A DNA stretch of 64,000 nucleotides. It comes from Candidatus Poribacteria bacterium. Lineage in GTDB: Bacteria; Poribacteria; WGA-4E; PCPOR2b. The stretch lies in assembly GCA_022822005.1 (NCBI GenBank), contig JAJECO010000097.1:1-64000 (forward strand), read 5' to 3'. Below the pieces are notes generated by a model that was not told where the DNA came from, did not search any database, and saw only the letters and a program-made list of their open reading frames with translations. The position numbers and the translations under genes were made by a program. Shown here piece by piece: positions 34,096 through 41,596 of this stretch (position 1 is its first letter; every line of letters starts with the position of its first letter).

Positions 34096-34119
34096 GGAAC
34101 TTAGTGAACCTTTTTAGTC
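34096..34119 (+). promoter_or_regulatory. ECF (sigma-E type) promoter for the sigma-factor operon
   Basis: GGAACTT (34096-34102) and GTC (34117-34119) match the -35 and -10 elements used by sigma-E-like ECF factors, with 16 bases between GGAAC and GTC. The sigma gene itself starts at 34151, so this looks like positive autoregulation. A second GTCC at 34121 could serve as an alternative -10. Confidence 0.6.
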
Positions 34120-34150
34120 TGTCCAACACTAAAAGGGGTGGGAGGACATT

Positions 34151-34690
34151 GTGGTAAGGGATATTGGAGAATATTACTCTCAGATTGCGCAGTTTGTTGA
34201 TGAGCTCTGTCGTGTTTATTATACACACAGCCAGCCCGATGACCGTAGGGATATCAGCAGCGAGGTCGCCCTGATCGCCCATCAAAACCGCGAACAGGTC
34301 GCGGACGAATCCGAAATGGCGTTTTTGGCGTGGCTCCATGAGATTGCGCGGAATGTGGTTCGGAACTGGTCGCGTCGTGAAGGGACTGCGGCGAGACGGG
34401 TACTTGGCAGTCTGGACGACGAAAATTTTGGCGTTGAGAGGATACCATCAGATTTGCGTGCGCCAGAGGCGGATCTTCTCTTTCAAGAGAGAATGGCGGT
34501 TGTTCGGGACGCAATCTCTGAACTTCCCTTGATTCATCAACAGGTGGTTTGGTTATTCTACATCGAAGAACTCTCGGTGAAGAAAATTGCGGTGAGGCTT
34601 GGCATTAGAAAAGGAACGGTTAAAAGCCGTCTATACCATGCAAGAGAGCAGCTCGCGACGCGTTTAGCATCCTATTTTGCCGAGAGTTAA
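34151..34690 (+). CDS. ECF-family RNA polymerase sigma factor
   Basis: The 179-residue product has the two-domain ECF layout. Region 2 is short and diverged (FLAWLHEIARNVVRNWSRR near 57-75). Region 4 is clear: LPLIHQQVVWLFYIEELSVKKIAVRLGIRKGTVKSRLYHAREQL near 124-168, including the helix-turn-helix. It begins with GTG, with GGGAGGA five bases upstream. Its promoter at 34096 matches the ECF consensus. A zinc-finger anti-sigma-like protein is encoded three genes downstream rather than adjacent. Probable regulon includes the lipoprotein, receptor and caspase-like genes that follow. Confidence 0.92.
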   Translation: MVRDIGEYYSQIAQFVDELCRVYYTHSQPDDRRDISSEVALIAHQNREQVADESEMAFLAWLHEIARNVVRNWSRREGTAARRVLGSLDDENFGVERIPSDLRAPEADLLFQERMAVVRDAISELPLIHQQVVWLFYIEELSVKKIAVRLGIRKGTVKSRLYHAREQLATRLASYFAES

Positions 34691-34710
34691 TAGTCAGAGG
34701 AAAGGAAACT

Positions 34711-35061
34711 ATGAAGCATCAAGCACTACTCCTTGTCATATCTTGTATGGCACTCTCGATCGTTCTTGGTGGGTGCCATGTAGAGGTAAATGTAAAAGAA
34801 GAAGAGGAAGAGGGTTTTTTGACAGTCAAGAACCGTTCAAATGTAACAATCACGAGTATTTTTATCGCTGCTGCCGAAGATAATTCTTGGGGAGCAGATC
34901 AACTCAAATCCGATGTGCTACTACCCGGTACTATAGTAACTTTTACTATTGAACCCGGCACCTATGATGTCAGGGTTGTATCTGAACATCATCGAGATTT
35001 CATATATGAAGCTGACATCTCGAGCGGGTGGACGACAACCGTGGCAGTCAGATTCAGATAA
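34711..35061 (+). CDS. Small predicted lipoprotein
   Basis: The 116-residue product has a hydrophobic signal with lipobox VLGGC, lipidated at Cys22, followed by an acidic run EEEEEG and then one compact beta-rich domain (LTVKNRSNVTITSIFI, GTIVTFTIEPGTYDVRVVSE, GWTTTVAVRFR). The domain resembles a small immunoglobulin-like or PEGA-like sandwich, but no family is firmly recognised. GAGGAAAGGA precedes the ATG. It lies 20 bases after the sigma gene, so it is almost certainly in the same operon. It may be a sensory or assembly factor in the envelope. Confidence 0.8.
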   Translation: MKHQALLLVISCMALSIVLGGCHVEVNVKEEEEEGFLTVKNRSNVTITSIFIAAAEDNSWGADQLKSDVLLPGTIVTFTIEPGTYDVRVVSEHHRDFIYEADISSGWTTTVAVRFR

Positions 35062-35121
35062 AGAAGCTGCAAGAACGACCTGCTTGCAAAGAAACCACGT
35101 TGAGAAAGGAATAAAACAGTA

Positions 35122-37623
35122 GTGAAACACCCCTTATTGATATGGAATGCGAGTTTGTATCTGTTCTTCATTCCTTTGTTGTTAATTCTCTTACTCCCAC
35201 TTGCAGCGCTATCTCAAACTGGGACGATTGAAGGCACCGTTTATGATGGGAACACCAACGCACCGATAGTCGGCGCAGAGGTCCATCTCCTCGGAACCGA
35301 TGAACGCCAAACAACGGACACGGAAGGGAAGTTCTGGTTTATAGAAATTGCTCCAGACACCTACACCGTGTCAATAACTCACAAAATGTACGACACCCCT
35401 ACAGAAACCGATATAGAGGTAACCGCAGGTCATACCACCCAAGTAACGCTTTTCCTTGGCGAGGTACTCATGCTAGAAGAGGTGATTGTTGAAGGGGAAC
35501 GGCTCCCACCGACAGTTAGCCGAAAGGACATCCGTGGTAGTGAACTGATGCGTATCCCCGGTGTGGGTAATGATGCGCTTAAGGGATTGACGACGCTTCC
35601 GGGCATCGGTGTTCCCAATGATTACTTCGGCATACTCTATATCCGTGGCAGTGAGCCGGGTTCTAACCTCTACTATTTCGACCGGACACCGCTCGGATAT
35701 CCGTTTCACTGGGGCGGTCTCCTCTCAACCGTCAGTTCGGAGGTCATTGATAAAATTGATGTCTATGCTGGCGGCTACGGTGCGGAATTTGGGTTGGATT
35801 CGCAGGCAGTGCTGGACATCCACTCACGTGATAGCATAGAAGAGCAGATAAGCGGTAAATTTAACCTAAATCTTCTCTACTCTGAGGGAATGCTCGAACG
35901 CAGGCTTGGCGATGAGGGATACGCCTCCATCGCCGGACGACGGAGCTACATCGATCTCATTGTTGGACGGTTCATTGATGAACAGCAGTTTCCCTACTTT
36001 TCGGATTATCAACTCAAATTTGCTTATCCCCTCGGTGAAAAGCATCACCTGACGCTCAACAGTTTTGCTGCAACCGACCATTTCCACATTGAGGAAGCGA
36101 CATCTGTAGAGGTTACGGAAGTTAGGATGGACGAAGGTGAAGTGGAAGAGGGAACACAGGCATTTGAAGGGGCGCGCACCTCTTTCTTTTTCAAAAATGG
36201 GTTTAACGCGCAAGGCATCCATCTTCGTTCAAATTTCACTGAAAATCTCACCTCCCAACTCTCGCTCACCCGTTCGTTCAATTTCCTCACGATCAACTTT
36301 GAGTCACCCATCACTGAGTCGTATGAATTTGATTCTGATGGAGAACTTGTGTCTGAAGTGGATTATGGTCACTACGACATAAACATAAAGGTTCCGGTCT
36401 ATACGCTTAGGGAGGACGTATCTTATAGGTTAGACCTCCGTCCTGATGATACTGGTAGCGAAAATGCGTCTGCTGCATTAGAAACAGGGTTCCTGTTCTC
36501 CTTCAGTCCGGCCAATAGTTTCGAGGACAGCAGGATCCCACAATATATAGGGAGCGAGGAACCTACAGAAATGGTTACCCCGGTCGTTGAAGATGGAGAG
36601 GTGGTGGGAGAAATCGTTGTGTATGAAGAGCAATGGGAGTTAGCCGATATTGAAGAAAGTCACTACGAATTCGGGCACGATTTCTTCCGTGCTGAAGGCT
36701 ACCTACAGGGTCGATATGACCCGCTGCCCTTTCTATCTGGTGCACTGGGCCTCCGGTTGGATTATCTGGATGTGACAGGGCAGCTTTCCATTCAACCGAG
36801 AGGCAGTTTAAGTTTTGCACTGCCGAGCGGTTCCAACCTCCGGTTTGCGTATGGACACTATGAACAGAGTCCGCAGCCGCATCAGATCCTATCGGAGAAC
36901 GGGAATTCTGCGTTGGAATCGAGCCTTGCACGGCACTATATCATGGAACTTGAAGGCGAACTTTCAGCTCGAACAGAATTCAAGTTTGCTACCTATTACA
37001 AGGACATGCAAAAATTGGTCACAGCGGATGAGACAGCGAATTATCTTAATCAGGGGGTTGCGTATGTTAGCGGTGCCGAGGCGTTCCTGCGGCACCGGGT
37101 GCCAGATAAATTCTTCGGTTGGATCTCGTATGCTTATACACACGCTGAGCGGCGCGAGAATCCTGAGAGTTCCTATCAACCTTATTTCTTTGATAACACG
37201 AACATTGTTAGCGTTGTTGCTAACTATAACTTCACGCCCAAGTTTGAGATTGGTGCAAAATGGCAGTATTTGAACGGAACCTCCGAAGTGCCAATCAGCT
37301 CGGTCATTCTCATCCAAGACCCAATGACACGCGGATTGAACCCGCTTTTGGCGGATGTTGATGAAGCCGTCACTGCTGAACTGACCCCGTACCACAAGTT
37401 AGATCTCCGGGTGAGTTACAAATTCGACTTTATGGGCTTACGGATAGGTGCGTTTCTCGATATTCTGAACGTTTACAACCGAAAAAATACCGTGAAATTC
37501 GTCTTTACCCCGGATGAGCCGCTTGAGGTCCAAGGTGAAGAGGTGGAAATCGAAGAGCCTGAGATCTTTGAAGCGCAGCAATTCCCGCGCATTCCCTATT
37601 TTGGTCTGACGGTTGAATTCTGA
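35122..37623 (+). CDS. TonB-dependent receptor with N-terminal carboxypeptidase-like domain
   Basis: Outer-membrane receptor of 833 residues. A signal peptide ends near residue 31. Residues 34-112 form a CarboxypepD-regulatory-like domain (GTIEGTVYDGNTNAPIVGAEV), EEVIVEGER at 119-127 resembles a TonB box, and the plug domain follows to about 235 (LYIRGSEPGSNLYYFDRTPL, VYAGGYGAEFG). A long beta-barrel ends in YFGLTVEF with the expected terminal Phe. It starts with GTG, with AAAGGA upstream. Its ligand is unknown; the lipoprotein before it is not SusD-like. In Bacteroidetes such receptors can signal to ECF factors through N-terminal domains, so a sensory role here is plausible. Confidence 0.9.
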   Translation: MKHPLLIWNASLYLFFIPLLLILLLPLAALSQTGTIEGTVYDGNTNAPIVGAEVHLLGTDERQTTDTEGKFWFIEIAPDTYTVSITHKMYDTPTETDIEVTAGHTTQVTLFLGEVLMLEEVIVEGERLPPTVSRKDIRGSELMRIPGVGNDALKGLTTLPGIGVPNDYFGILYIRGSEPGSNLYYFDRTPLGYPFHWGGLLSTVSSEVIDKIDVYAGGYGAEFGLDSQAVLDIHSRDSIEEQISGKFNLNLLYSEGMLERRLGDEGYASIAGRRSYIDLIVGRFIDEQQFPYFSDYQLKFAYPLGEKHHLTLNSFAATDHFHIEEATSVEVTEVRMDEGEVEEGTQAFEGARTSFFFKNGFNAQGIHLRSNFTENLTSQLSLTRSFNFLTINFESPITESYEFDSDGELVSEVDYGHYDINIKVPVYTLREDVSYRLDLRPDDTGSENASAALETGFLFSFSPANSFEDSRIPQYIGSEEPTEMVTPVVEDGEVVGEIVVYEEQWELADIEESHYEFGHDFFRAEGYLQGRYDPLPFLSGALGLRLDYLDVTGQLSIQPRGSLSFALPSGSNLRFAYGHYEQSPQPHQILSENGNSALESSLARHYIMELEGELSARTEFKFATYYKDMQKLVTADETANYLNQGVAYVSGAEAFLRHRVPDKFFGWISYAYTHAERRENPESSYQPYFFDNTNIVSVVANYNFTPKFEIGAKWQYLNGTSEVPISSVILIQDPMTRGLNPLLADVDEAVTAELTPYHKLDLRVSYKFDFMGLRIGAFLDILNVYNRKNTVKFVFTPDEPLEVQGEEVEIEEPEIFEAQQFPRIPYFGLTVEF

Positions 37624-37693
37624 AGGTTCGTGGTTGAAAAACACTCCCACATAATAATCTTTGGTGCGAGTTAGTGAGGAGATTGAGTTCAAA

Positions 37694-37815
37694 CGTTCAT
37701 TCGTTCAGAAGTTCATTGGGGAGTGATGAGCGAGAAAACGAGCGAATGAAAGGTAAAATGCAAAACGTAAGGAGGTTACTGTTTTTTTCACGTTTCACGC
37801 ATCACGTTTCACGCA
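37694..37815. repeat. Octamer and heptamer tandem repeat cluster
   Basis: CGTTCATT, CGTTCAGA and AGTTCATT (37694-37717) are octamers. TCACGTT, TCACGCA, TCACGTT and TCACGCA (37788-37815) are four exact heptamers, the reverse complement of those at 17994. They fill most of the 210-base gap between the receptor and the anti-sigma-like gene. Confidence 0.85.
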
Positions 37816-37833
37816 TAAGGAGGTTGAACAAAG

Positions 37834-38505
37834 ATGAAATGTAATCAAGTACAGGAAAGGTTACTCGACTCTATTGATAAGGAGTTGTCTCCACAGATCC
37901 GAGCGCATCTGCTTGGCTGTGAAGAATGCGAGCAGAAATATAGAATCTTGCAGGAGACACAGAAATCTCTAAAAGATTTTGGAGCTGCTGTTCGGGATGG
38001 TTCTATCTCGACGGAGGCACCTCCATTTCTGCCAGTTCGACGGCGTTCCTTCTGGATCGAACTACGCGATAGCCTGAAAACACCTGTGCCGGTGTGGGTG
38101 CCTTCCCTTATTGGTGCGGTGGGGGTGTTGTTGTTCGTTGCGGCGATTTTTACACCGTTCAGCTCAACGGTGGAATGGGGTGCACAAAAAGGGAGTGGAA
38201 GCACAGGACGCATCGCCCCGCCGCTCTCAGCGGAGGGGATGCTGGAGTTTCTCATTGTGCCCGAACCGACGGATGCGGGCCAACTCACTGCCTCAATCGA
38301 AGCGGTTGAGACGTTTTTGACGATGCATCCCAACGATCTCGCTATGCACGTCAAACTGGTTGAGTTGTACCAATCTCGGCTCGAGTTGGGGGAACTTCCC
38401 GCTACCGAGCGCGAGGCTATGACAGAGAAATTATCGATTGAACGCCAACGTTTTTCAGACCTGTTAGAAGATTTTACGAAAGGAGCGCAGGGTGGTTCAA
38501 AATAA
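37834..38505 (+). CDS. Zinc-finger (zf-HC2) membrane anti-sigma-like protein
   Basis: The 223-residue product begins with a zf-HC2/ZAS-type motif: Cys3, His25, Cys29 and Cys32 in AHLLGCEEC, the module by which anti-sigma factors bind ECF sigma factors. A membrane segment spans about 86-108 (VPSLIGAVGVLLFVAAIF), leaving about 110 residues outside the cytoplasm. AAGGAGG is ideal before the ATG. The 3' end overlaps the caspase-like gene by 14 bases, implying translational coupling. It is the likely inhibitor of the sigma factor at 34151, although unusually far from it. Confidence 0.85.
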   Translation: MKCNQVQERLLDSIDKELSPQIRAHLLGCEECEQKYRILQETQKSLKDFGAAVRDGSISTEAPPFLPVRRRSFWIELRDSLKTPVPVWVPSLIGAVGVLLFVAAIFTPFSSTVEWGAQKGSGSTGRIAPPLSAEGMLEFLIVPEPTDAGQLTASIEAVETFLTMHPNDLAMHVKLVELYQSRLELGELPATEREAMTEKLSIERQRFSDLLEDFTKGAQGGSK

Positions 38506-41500
38506 ATTAGGGGCAACGATTCTGTGGGTGTTTTCAATCTGCAGCTTTTTTGTGATGTTTTCACAGCCCATCCACGCTGAGCAACACGCCATCTTGGTGG
38601 GTGTCTGGGACTATGAAAATCCAAATTTGCAGCTTGACGCTCCACCAAACGACCTGGAACTGATGGAGGCACTCCTCTCAGCGCACGGTGTTACACAAGC
38701 ACGGATGCACATCCTCGCCAATCCAAATAAGGCGCAGATTCAGCGGAAATTTCGAGAACTCAGCCAACGCCTGACCCCTTCTGATAGTCTGCTTTTCTAC
38801 TTTAGTGGACATGGAACGCAGATTATTGACAAACTCGGGACTTTCCCGGGGGATGAAGCGAAAGGGCGATATCCGGATAGGAACGACGAAGCGCTGTTGC
38901 CTGTGGATGCGGACTTAGCATCGCCGAAGACATACCTCTTGGATGATGAACTTAACACTTTGTTGCAAGAGCTTCCAACGCGGCGTGTCTCCTGCATTAT
39001 TGACACATGCTATTCCGGTGACATACTTCGAGAGATCCGCTTAGGACGCCCTAAAGGTTCACCGGTGACGGACACCTCAATGGGAGTTATTCAACCGACC
39101 CAGACCGTGAGCCATACGGAGGACATCTTAGATGAATCCGCGGACTTTGCACTGCTACTGGCAGCGGCTGCTTACAATCAGGTTGTTCACGAACTGCGCA
39201 TCCCGATTGGCGAGACCTACCTGCCTATCAGCGCGATGACCTATTCCCTCTATCGAGGGGTGTTTGCGCGCTCGCAGCCTCCTGCCGATCAGGCGGGCGC
39301 GAGGCAATGGGGTGACAGACTGACGTACCGCCAAATTATTCAGCACATCCAGAACGACCATAAACAGTGGAATCTAGCGTGGCAGCCTGTCCTTGAGGGA
39401 CCAGGAAATCGCTTCAATGAAGTGTTTCTCCCTAGTAACTTGATGGTGCAGTGGGAAAAAACATTAACTCTCACAACGACAAAGGGGCAGTCGATAGAGG
39501 TGAGTCGGCGGACGTTGGCGCTTGCCGGTGGTGGCAACTTCCAGCTCGGCGCTGCGAGCGGGGTCAACACTCGACATTGGGCGGTTGTTATCGGGGTGGA
39601 TGCCTATCCGTCGCCCTTCCAATCGCTCAAGTATGCCGCCGATGATGCCAAAGCGGTCGCACAGGTGTTCCAAGACGCGGGTGTCAACGTGACGTTGATG
39701 ACGCCTGATAGCCTGATTCAGCCGACGAAGGCGAATGTGGTTGCGCAGCTTCAACGACACGCTCAACTTGAAGCGGTAGATCTGCTGACTGTTTATCTCT
39801 CCGGCCACGGTGAGGATGTCGATGGAACAGGTTACTTCCTGCCGATGGATGTCACCGATCCACTCGCGGACAGTGGGCTGAGTCTTGAGAATCTATTTGC
39901 GATTCTCAACCGTGCAAACGCCAAGCACCGCTTTGTCATTGTTGATGCGTGTCGTGTGGCACCGAAGGAGTATTTCGTTGCATCATTGTCCCGTTATAGT
40001 GAAGAGAGCAATATTATCTTCACTGCGTGCGATAGTAACCAGTGGGCACCTGAAGTGCCACGGCTGAAACATGGGTTGTTCACCTACTTCCTGCTCAAAG
40101 GGCTGCGCGGCGACCACCAAGATCGGGGCGCAGCGGGTCCCGATGGAACTGTCACGGTGTTGGGGCTATTGGATTATGTGACGCGTGGGATTGAGGAGTG
40201 GCATTCCCATCTGCCCGAGGCGCAACACTATCCGCAGCAGATTACGCCCCGTGTTTTTTATAACGGAAAATATATCTCACTGCTGAACAACCAAGGGATT
40301 GATCCGACGGTGATCAACAATGAAGGGCTGCTTCCCCAAATTACCAATACGTTCCGACATCAACTCACCCGCAATTTGGAACTATTACTCCCTTCAGAAA
40401 GGAATGGTGGTGTTACACCGTCAACCCCGAAAGGGGGCGATTTACATCTGCCTGTGACCATTTCGCTGATTCCGTGGATAAGCACTGTCGGATTTCAGGA
40501 GTTTAACCGCAATGTCACAACGAACCTGTCCCTCAACATCATTGCGGGCTATCACACGAAGCTCGATGGCATCGAATTGGGTGGGGTTTTGAACATGAAG
40601 GGGGTTGAAGTGCGAGGTGCACAGTTTGCTGGGGTCGGCAATATCGTCGGTGGCGATGTAGATGGCTTTCAAATTTCAGGTGGACTCAACGCTGTTGGCA
40701 GAAATGTGGAGGGTTTCCAAATTTCGGGAGGTCTCAATGCTATTGGTGGAAGTGTCCAGGGCTTTCAAGCCGCTGGCGGGGGTAATTTTGCAGCCCGTAA
40801 CCTTCAGGGGTTGCAGATTACCTCTGGGCTAAATTTCGTTGGAAGAAACGTGTTAAGTCAAGGTCTACAAATCGCAGCCGGGCTCAACATTGCCGGGAAT
40901 TTAGAGGGAACACAAATCAGCGCAGCCGCCAATATCGCGCTTGGTCGGGACCAAGAGGCAAATATGCCGTACGCCGGCACACAGATTGGGGTGGTCAATA
41001 TCGCGCTTGGTAATATTGGGACACAGGTTGGACTTCTCAACATCGCTGGGCATGTGAGTACGACACAGGTTGGGCTTCTCAACGTCTCCGGGCGGATGTC
41101 GGGCGTCCCGATTGGACTAATCAGTTTTGTTAAGGATAACCCGTTACATCTGCAACTGTGGGGTAGCGATACGGAGGTTGCGAACCTTGGGATTCGACTC
41201 GGTAGCCGACACGTTTACAGCCTGTTGATGGTCGGCAGCTACCCACACGGCGATTTGGGCAGATGGTCGTCTGGATTTGGTATCGGTGGGCATATTCCGC
41301 TCGGCAAGCGACTTTTTCTGAACGTTGACTTTATTACGCGGACGGTGGGCTATACCGATGGGTCAAGCCGGAACACTTGGGAGTATGGTGAACATACTGC
41401 TCTGAACAAACTGCGCCTTGGGTTTGGCTGGGAGCAGCACAAGTGGTTTAGTGTCTTTGGTGGCCTTTCGCTCAACTTCCTCGTATCGGATAGATGGGAC

Positions 41501-41596
41501 ACTTCGGATTTTGGATACGGATTTGAGCACGTATACCGAACAGATGATACGACGCTTCGGATTTGGCCTGGATTCTTTGCGGGGGTTCAGTTTTGA
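38492..41596 (+). CDS. Secreted protein with two caspase-fold domains and outer-membrane-like C-terminus
   Basis: The 1034-residue product has a signal peptide ending near residue 29 (IHAEQ). Caspase-like domain 1 spans about 30-300 with the His107 (FSGHG) and Cys173 (DTCYSGD) dyad. Domain 2 spans about 360-600 with His439 (LSGHG) and Cys487 (VDACRV). Residues 655-880 hold degenerate repeats of the form G-x-Q-x-(G/S)-x-x-N-x-x-G, as in surface-repeat proteins. The last 150 residues are beta-strand rich and end in GFFAGVQF with a C-terminal Phe, typical of an outer-membrane barrel. Both catalytic dyads are intact. GTG start, AAAGGAG upstream, overlapping the anti-sigma-like gene. Metacaspase or orthocaspase activity is inferred, not shown. 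Confidence 0.88.
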   Translation: MVQNKLGATILWVFSICSFFVMFSQPIHAEQHAILVGVWDYENPNLQLDAPPNDLELMEALLSAHGVTQARMHILANPNKAQIQRKFRELSQRLTPSDSLLFYFSGHGTQIIDKLGTFPGDEAKGRYPDRNDEALLPVDADLASPKTYLLDDELNTLLQELPTRRVSCIIDTCYSGDILREIRLGRPKGSPVTDTSMGVIQPTQTVSHTEDILDESADFALLLAAAAYNQVVHELRIPIGETYLPISAMTYSLYRGVFARSQPPADQAGARQWGDRLTYRQIIQHIQNDHKQWNLAWQPVLEGPGNRFNEVFLPSNLMVQWEKTLTLTTTKGQSIEVSRRTLALAGGGNFQLGAASGVNTRHWAVVIGVDAYPSPFQSLKYAADDAKAVAQVFQDAGVNVTLMTPDSLIQPTKANVVAQLQRHAQLEAVDLLTVYLSGHGEDVDGTGYFLPMDVTDPLADSGLSLENLFAILNRANAKHRFVIVDACRVAPKEYFVASLSRYSEESNIIFTACDSNQWAPEVPRLKHGLFTYFLLKGLRGDHQDRGAAGPDGTVTVLGLLDYVTRGIEEWHSHLPEAQHYPQQITPRVFYNGKYISLLNNQGIDPTVINNEGLLPQITNTFRHQLTRNLELLLPSERNGGVTPSTPKGGDLHLPVTISLIPWISTVGFQEFNRNVTTNLSLNIIAGYHTKLDGIELGGVLNMKGVEVRGAQFAGVGNIVGGDVDGFQISGGLNAVGRNVEGFQISGGLNAIGGSVQGFQAAGGGNFAARNLQGLQITSGLNFVGRNVLSQGLQIAAGLNIAGNLEGTQISAAANIALGRDQEANMPYAGTQIGVVNIALGNIGTQVGLLNIAGHVSTTQVGLLNVSGRMSGVPIGLISFVKDNPLHLQLWGSDTEVANLGIRLGSRHVYSLLMVGSYPHGDLGRWSSGFGIGGHIPLGKRLFLNVDFITRTVGYTDGSSRNTWEYGEHTALNKLRLGFGWEQHKWFSVFGGLSLNFLVSDRWDTSDFGYGFEHVYRTDDTTLRIWPGFFAGVQF

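Follow-up and report, generated by a model that had tools for sequence, protein, structure and literature searches.

In a genome of Candidatus Poribacteria, which are sponge-associated bacteria, we identified a five-gene cluster whose core, in our best reading, consists of three genes encoding an ECF sigma factor, a membrane anti-sigma factor, and an exported tandem caspase. From sequence analysis, we propose that the exported caspase may be the dedicated site-1 protease of the anti-sigma factor in a self-contained three-gene signal-transduction module, and we give this reading a probability of about 0.5. Co-inheritance of the three genes suggests that the protease attacks this inhibitor on the outer side of the inner membrane. 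The analysis shows the gene unit, its co-occurrence across genomes, the gene overlap, the conserved dyads, a predicted topology, and the conservation of the promoter; we infer the direction of action, the cleavage, the cut site, and the signal.

Organization of the cluster

The cluster lies in a 64,000-nucleotide stretch of DNA, referred to here as the window. It is real, with all ORFs intact. As stated in a preliminary description of this DNA, the sigma, lipoprotein, TonB receptor, anti-sigma, and caspase ORFs share one direction (34151 to 41596, all on the plus strand), the anti-sigma gene (ending at 38505) overlaps the caspase gene (starting at 38492) by 14 bases, and the caspase protein carries two intact dyads. 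The features are as follows.

34105..34130, +, predicted sigma-dependent (autoregulatory) promoter TGAACC-N15-ACACT, conserved before orthologous sigma genes
34151..34690, +, ECF sigma factor, 179 aa, GTG start (Sigma70_r2 and r4_2 above cut-off; PDB match SigW)
34711..35061, +, small accessory lipoprotein, 116 aa (lipobox LGGC; conserved only within the genus)
35122..37623, +, TonB-dependent receptor, cargo, 833 aa, CarboxypepD_reg, plug, and barrel, no STN (Pfam/NCBIfam)
37834..38505, +, membrane anti-sigma factor, 223 aa: cytoplasmic N-terminal zinc domain, one TM helix, periplasmic helical domain (Hx3Cx2C, hydropathy, neighboring sigma gene)
37906..37929, +, codons of the Hx3Cx2C zinc motif (H25, C29, C32), invariant in 9 orthologues
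38092..38154, +, transmembrane segment, residues 87-107 (hydropathy 2.4)
38188..38190, +, K119, candidate cleavage site in the juxtamembrane linker (lysine in 8/9 orthologues)
38215..38388, +, anti-sigma periplasmic domain, residues 128-185, predicted helical bundle, most conserved part
38492..38505, +, 14 bases shared by the end of the anti-sigma gene and the start of the caspase gene (ORF coordinates)
38492..41596, +, exported protein of 1034 aa with tandem caspase domains and a C-terminal repeat/beta domain (two Peptidase_C14 matches; signal sequence; in the G065 orthologue, repeats of the LA_2272 type)
38579..39271, +, caspase domain 1, metacaspase-like; H107 at 38810-38812, C173 at 39008-39010 (PDB matches 7qp0, 4f6o; dyad and D54/S105/D171 invariant in 9)
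39566..40291, +, caspase domain 2, paracaspase/MALT1-like; H439 at 39806-39808, C487 at 39950-39952 (PDB matches MALT1; dyad and D385/D485 invariant in 8)
40457..41593, +, G-x-Q...N repeats with a C-terminal beta region whose last residue is F (VC2662/LA_2272 family matches)

The sigma factor and its promoter

The sigma factor consists of regions 2 and 4 only, in about 180 amino acids, as ECF sigma factors do. Both Pfam matches exceed their cut-offs (PF04542, 25.8 bits; PF08281, 49.9 bits), NCBIfam TIGR02937 matches at 69.6 bits, and the best PDB match is SigW (5wuq; E=7e-18). An ECF-type promoter had been described before this gene; a conserved predicted promoter does exist there, but it is not a GGAAC element. 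At this position, the candidate GGAACTT...GTC is confined to this genome and its sister G003 and was rejected. TGAACC-N15-ACACT instead precedes all eight orthologous sigma genes across the class (as the variant ACATG in G068), with a spacer sequence that varies among orthologues, and a second G068 copy is also preceded by an element of this type. A genome-wide regulon search with this motif gave counts no higher than those of a reversed control; therefore, only one promoter site in this genome besides that of the operon itself is credible, and it precedes a second TonB receptor.

Co-inheritance of the three core genes

We compared 85 genomes of the phylum and took matches above 250 bits as sigma orthologues. 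The preliminary description had proposed looking for conserved co-occurrence of the anti-sigma and caspase genes, and the two were found together in every one of the eight genomes with a sigma orthologue (hypergeometric probability of about 2e-10, ignoring phylogeny), with a ninth match on a 4.2-kb contig that carries the anti-sigma and caspase genes only. In each of the nine genomes that have both, the two genes overlap, by either 14 or 4 bases. Three distant genomes (G065, G066, and G068) have a minimal side-by-side operon of sigma, anti-sigma, and caspase genes, the last two overlapping, and the direct adjacency of the first two supports sigma and anti-sigma as a natural pair. Distant sigma matches in G062 and G063 are ordinary ECFs with no caspases nearby.

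The TonB receptor and the lipoprotein are cargo or accessory, outside the module core. Sensing by one or the other had been suggested, which the comparison did not bear out: the module occurs without both in G065, G066, and G068, and in G012 an unrelated small secreted protein takes the place of the lipoprotein. In the congener G001, the receptor gene is retained in place while the sigma, lipoprotein, anti-sigma, and caspase genes are lost from both flanks; receptor relatives are present in 65 of the 85 genomes, most of them without the module. The same data contradict Fec-type cell-surface signaling, in which the receptor would sense a ligand and signal through the anti-sigma factor, the caspase being incidental. 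Such systems likewise cluster ECF sigma, anti-sigma, and TonB receptor genes (PMC11637429), and the receptor gene does lie between sigma and anti-sigma genes in the genus and in G012 (38% identical). However, a domain search of both proteins found no match to STN in the receptor or to FecR in the anti-sigma factor, and the receptor, in contrast to that of Fec-type systems (PMC11637429), is dispensable. We regard this explanation as highly improbable.

The anti-sigma factor

The zf-HC2 match of the anti-sigma factor (18.4 bits) falls under the Pfam cut-off of 22.2. The protein has the features of class I (zinc) anti-sigma factors: an N-terminal helical domain of ~50 residues with Hx3Cx2C, and a gene next to that of the ECF sigma factor (in 3 genomes). 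C3, H25, C29, and C32 are invariant in nine orthologues. Between G000 and G065, the periplasmic domain is 57% conserved versus 41% for the zinc domain, as expected if the partner protein is periplasmic. K119 is followed by G or S in the eight orthologues that keep it, within a linker that is otherwise variable and predicted to be disordered; in G068 it is missing, with another lysine a few residues downstream, which counts against K119 as the site. In a single-chain structure model, only the periplasmic helices were confident (pLDDT mostly 78-89 from residue 151) and the zinc/sigma-binding region was poor; a Foldseek search with this model returned no match at E<=0.001. A profile of the protein found no full-length relatives in roughly 300 sampled genomes outside the phylum.

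The exported caspase protein

The protease had been described as secreted, and its sequence agrees: an N-terminal hydrophobic signal (residues 6-24) predicts export toward the side of the anti-sigma C-terminal domain. Both His-Cys dyads are invariant in every orthologue possessing the respective domain. By sequence alignment, D54/S105/D171 correspond to Asp95/Ser156/Asp211 of TbMCA2 and D385/D485 to Asp365/Asp462 of MALT1, so that both domains are predicted to have an acidic S1 pocket and specificity for a basic P1 residue. Metacaspases accept Arg or Lys at P1, and paracaspases accept Arg (PMC4357240). Given these acidic S1 residues, K119 fits the predicted specificity of both domains; that MALT1-type domains prefer Arg while the candidate site is Lys counts against the site-1 model. 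At a putative calcium site, D132, D151, and D152 align with metacaspase acids, but the acidic residue that follows the catalytic Cys is out of register.

The C-terminal repeat/beta region resembles the LA_2272 surface-repeat kind and is a probable outer-membrane or surface anchor. Its repeat number differs among orthologues, and G002 has a stand-alone copy of it. An AlphaFold2 model of the protein was unusable (mean pLDDT 35). The PADLOC match of the protein was to a generic caspase model.

The caspase protein could alternatively be a nonproteolytic regulator like RseB, one that shields the anti-sigma periplasmic domain until a signal on the repeat domain lifts the shield, with proteolysis elsewhere or on itself. 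The position of its gene, third and overlapping the anti-sigma gene (compare rpoE-rseA-rseB), and the conserved periplasmic partner surface of the anti-sigma factor would suit such a role, but a mere binder would not need strictly conserved dyads and acidic S1 pockets, and we consider it improbable.

Related operons outside the phylum

Five genomes outside the phylum have triads with the same gene order and the same C-terminal barrel family, built on another anti-sigma type. Their anti-sigma factors have a conserved K-G just beyond the membrane (TRIKG); their periplasmic domains are unrelated to the poribacterial one, which counts against the site-1 model. Of the six caspase-barrel proteins found there, one (G271) lacks an anti-sigma gene immediately upstream, a further point against the model. 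Operons of sigma-70 and metacaspase genes were reported in myxobacteria, Ralstonia, and Fibrobacter by Asplund-Samuelsson et al. in 2012 (PMC3501461), and the present cluster is likewise a predicted operon that combines a sigma gene with the gene of a caspase homologue; the triads outside the phylum are of this general kind too. In its section on operons, that paper gives neither an anti-sigma factor nor a mechanism and does not list Poribacteria. Compared with the triads outside the phylum and the 2012-type operons as that section presents them, the poribacterial unit differs in its zinc class I anti-sigma factor, its tandem metacaspase/paracaspase, and its unrelated anti-sigma periplasmic domain. 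Among the titles and abstract openings listed in literature searches, nothing on point joined Poribacteria with a caspase or with a sigma factor.

Proposed mechanism

In the site-1 model, the N-terminal zinc domain of the anti-sigma factor would hold the sigma factor in the cytoplasm, with the C-terminal helical domain extending across into the periplasm. The secreted caspase protein, probably anchored in the outer membrane through its C-terminal beta domain, would dock on that conserved periplasmic domain with both caspase domains. Upon an envelope signal, it would cleave the linker next to the membrane, the cut most likely falling after K119 (WG-x-x-K|G/S), and an M50 (site-2 type) protease encoded in the genome would complete sigma release. 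The freed sigma factor would transcribe its own operon from TGAACC-N15-ACACT, including, in this genus, the TonB receptor and lipoprotein cargo.

Co-occurrence, the minimal operon, joint loss in G001, the conserved periplasmic domain, the invariant dyads and S1 residues, K119, TRIKG, and the M50 protease all speak for this model. Against it, the C-terminal domain may keep the caspase at the outer membrane, distant from the short anti-sigma tail. The structure models of both proteins are too weak in quality to back docking. RpoE/RseA/DegS/RseP similarly pairs a membrane anti-sigma factor bearing a periplasmic tail with a site-2 protease, but its site-1 protease is a PDZ serine protease, whereas here the operon itself encodes the candidate, a caspase.

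The third gene of an ECF operon is frequently a target, and the caspase could be an output: sigma and anti-sigma factors would sense envelope stress otherwise, through a DegS-type site-1 protease, and induce a surface-anchored caspase acting on periplasmic or host/extracellular proteins. The location of the caspase gene inside an autoregulated operon, the export of its product, the surface-type repeats of varying number, and the sponge-associated host are in keeping with this. It leaves unexplained why conservation of the anti-sigma factor is higher in its periplasmic domain than in its sigma-binding domain, why the anti-sigma and caspase genes overlap phylum-wide, and why the triad recurs with another anti-sigma type; we think it unlikely.

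CRISPR-type defense circuits share the logic of a caspase-fold or Lon protease that cuts an anti-sigma factor and frees an ECF sigma factor (PMC10028731, PMC11417357). In type III-E systems, the caspase-clan protease Csx29 is proposed to cut Csx30, the inhibitor of the ECF factor CASP-sigma, relieving inhibition (PMC10028731); CalpL, CalpT, and CalpS form a triad of dedicated protease, anti-sigma factor, and ECF sigma factor (PMC11417357). The former uses a cytoplasmic, RNA-activated CHAT protease and soluble Csx30 (PMC10028731), and the latter a cytoplasmic Lon-SAVED protease driven by cA4 (PMC11417357), whereas here the protease is an exported C14 caspase and the anti-sigma factor a zinc protein of the membrane, not Csx30 or CalpT. 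No CRISPR-like repeat array was found in 25-64 kb of the window, nor were cas-like neighbors seen in the loci read, in agreement with the earlier remark that CRISPR components are not visible. A disguised circuit of this kind is contradicted at this locus, and we give it almost no weight. The Csx29/Csx30 precedent, invoked earlier, holds as a functional analogy to protease-released ECF sigma factors but not as kinship.

Implications

For most bacterial caspase homologues, no substrate is known to us. Here, gene overlap and co-inheritance bind a caspase to one membrane anti-sigma factor, which singles out one candidate substrate and supplies a candidate cut site and a reporter promoter; the caspase-substrate question is therefore open to experiment in ordinary laboratory bacteria, which is rare for the proposed role of a bacterial caspase. 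More tentatively, at somewhat less than even odds, Poribacteria and other lineages with different anti-sigma factors may share a class of envelope-signaling operon (sigma, anti-sigma, caspase-barrel) in which an exported metacaspase-like and paracaspase-like pair serves as dedicated site-1 protease, cutting at a conserved juxtamembrane lysine. If true, this would assign caspases to envelope signaling instead of cell death and would be a counterpart, minus CRISPR, of the CRISPR protease-sigma circuits.

Cluster architecture and flanking genes

The preliminary description had placed five genes in one direction, and all five open reading frames (ECF sigma factor, small lipoprotein, TonB receptor, zinc membrane anti-sigma, and exported tandem-caspase protein) are indeed codirectional and intact, with the anti-sigma and caspase genes overlapping by 14 bases as described. 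The genome (G000) is 6.0 Mb in size. A domain profile search found regions 2 and 4, and no others, in the sigma protein, whose nearest solved structures are SigW, SigH, and RpoE. In the anti-sigma, C3, H25, C29, and C32 do not vary across nine orthologues; class I anti-sigmas, which bind zinc, are recognized by an Hx3Cx2C motif (PMC7406223). A single membrane helix (residues 87 to 107) is predicted, with ~115 residues beyond it on the outer side. The caspase protein carries a signal sequence ahead of a pair of Peptidase_C14 domains, which are followed by G-x-Q...N repeats and then a beta-rich terminus. Compared with solved structures, the first Peptidase_C14 domain matches metacaspases and the second MALT1 paracaspase.

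The relatives compared here include genomes with the Poribacteria contigs JAJDUM010000124.1 (G003), PYIZ01000029.1 (G004), JAJEAL010000134.1 (G002), JAJDTR010000039.1 (G012), and JAAXHL010000083.1 (G079). A 14-base tandem repeat (TCACGTTTCACGCA) lies between receptor and anti-sigma at 37788-37816 of the window, and G003 and G004 have similar sequence. At L035:6371-7660 (G002:C33), the repeat/beta C-terminal domain makes up an exported 429-aa protein by itself, lacking caspases. At L036:1-3136 (G007:C500), a contig that begins within the gene for a similar repeat/beta protein, a TonB receptor gene comes immediately after that gene, so that the window order is reversed. A large helicase-like gene (identified by eye) lies 3′ of the caspase gene in G002 and G004 (L031:11416-13965 and L033:12216-15551) and 3′ of the receptor in G001 (L080:8290-10989); the window has no such gene at the corresponding position, and what lies downstream of the cluster therefore varies.

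Coinheritance of sigma, anti-sigma, and caspase

Profile searches found full-length anti-sigma relatives in 9 of the 85 phylum genomes and sigma relatives (>250 bits) in 8, the same set minus G079, whose 4.2-kb contig stops short of any visible sigma; the listed contamination of that assembly is 9%. Caspase proteins matching across the tandem domains were found only in these genomes. Co-occurrence of anti-sigma and caspase genes, the check proposed earlier, was positive in all nine, and each of the eight genomes with the sigma carries both (hypergeometric probability, ~2e-10, phylogeny ignored). The two genes overlap by 14 or 4 bases in 9/9 genomes. At least three lineages carry the triad: one genus of family f1, G012 in f2, and G065, G066, and G068 in f7. 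The f7 operon consists of sigma, anti-sigma, and caspase and nothing else, with sigma-to-anti-sigma gaps of ~35 to 50 bases and anti-sigma/caspase overlaps of 4, 4, and 14 bases; therefore, the sigma and anti-sigma of the window, whose genes are 3 kb apart, are each other's natural partners. We consider it close to certain (about 0.95) that the three genes form one functional unit. In G068 (L065:1392-4170), two separate genes encode the caspases, with one dyad each, and the barrel (the C-terminal repeat/beta domain) is missing, indicating that the barrel is not essential; by eye, the second caspase has a PEGA/LPP20-like tail in its place.

The TonB receptor had been proposed as part of the circuit, a role that did not hold up. 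The closed genome G001, which belongs to the genus of G000, retains the upstream neighbors and the receptor (84% identical) in place, with no sigma and lipoprotein on one side and no anti-sigma and caspase on the other, and receptor relatives occur in 65 of the 85 phylum genomes. The core is thus gained or lost together, and the receptor lies outside it. Ancestral absence from G001 is less favored than loss of the module, since a leader resembling that of sigma (82% over 46 bases) still precedes the G001 receptor.

Sigma promoter

By eye, comparison of upstream regions revealed TGAACC-N15-ACACT 5′ of sigma in seven genomes, which span two orders of the class; the G068 sigma reads TGAACC-N15-ACATG, and a second G068 copy (G068:C540:4-455, where the contig ends inside the gene) has the exact motif. 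Conservation between the orders does not extend to the spacer, which is what a protein-binding signal should show. Across the genome, the motif was no more frequent than a reversed-pattern control, which points to an autoregulated sigma with a narrow regulon. One further G000 site precedes a second TonB receptor and is accompanied by a sigma-gene remnant: G000:C96:72078-72103 holds an exact promoter copy plus ~80 bases of the sigma gene 5′ end, 187 bases 5′ of the receptor (locus L110, 704-2947, minus strand). Related receptors in G002, G003, G004, and G012 have no such copy. The site would be the product of promoter capture or else what remains of a second cluster that has decayed.

Similar triads outside the phylum

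Searching the caspase alignment against 387 genomes identified six genomes outside the phylum with proteins that combine caspase and barrel. In five (G112, G232, G370, G172, and G312), the genes immediately 5′ encode an ECF sigma and a membrane protein with one helix; their junctions measure a few bases and are for the most part 4-base overlaps. In the sixth, G271, the 230 bases present 5′ of the caspase gene contain nothing of this kind. These five anti-sigma candidates give at most weak anti-sigma matches, have no zinc motif and a different periplasmic domain, and carry TRIKG soon past the helix (5/5). The caspases at these loci retain their His and Cys (SGHS/SGHA, D-[SA]-C). Recurrence of the arrangement with an unrelated anti-sigma argues for a functional link between anti-sigma and caspase. 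The G312 locus contains lipoprotein-like sequences that, as a guess, resemble those of Fibrobacter.

Proposed action of the caspase on the anti-sigma

The periplasmic domain (residues 128 to 185) is the most conserved part of the anti-sigma (57% identical between G000 and G065, versus 41% for the zinc domain and 19 to 35% elsewhere; comparison with G068 gave the same top ranking), implying a constrained periplasmic partner. Of the exported products encoded alongside, the caspase alone is always present. By sequence alignment, both its domains retain residues that line the S1 pocket in TbMCA2 and MALT1; the metacaspase calcium site is matched in part only. Metacaspases accept arginine and lysine at P1, and paracaspases accept arginine (PMC4357240). 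On the outer side, the juxtamembrane linker varies in sequence and is predicted to be disordered, with K119 kept in 8/9 orthologues and followed by G or S; G068 lacks it and has a lysine a few residues further along. An M50 site-2 protease is encoded in the genome. From the conserved domain, S1 residues, linker lysine, and M50 protease, we infer a scheme in which the caspase would make the site-1 cut in the periplasmic part and the usual intramembrane step would follow. That the caspase acts on this part in some way is probable; that it is the site-1 protease is an even bet, and a cut after K119 is a tentative prediction, less likely than not to be right.

Relation to known systems

Sigma-70 factors in metacaspase operons were reported in Myxococcus, Anaeromyxobacter, Haliangium, Sorangium, Ralstonia, and Fibrobacter by Asplund-Samuelsson and colleagues (PMC3501461), whose operon section names neither an anti-sigma nor a mechanism. 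Known CRISPR systems include some in which a protease, of the caspase clan or of the Lon type, releases an ECF sigma (PMC10028731, PMC11417357). Relative to those circuits and to the operons as that section describes them, the present locus differs in its exported tandem metacaspase/paracaspase and overlapping zinc membrane anti-sigma. Within the open-access literature searched, these two features, together with the strict coinheritance and the promoter, appear to be novel.
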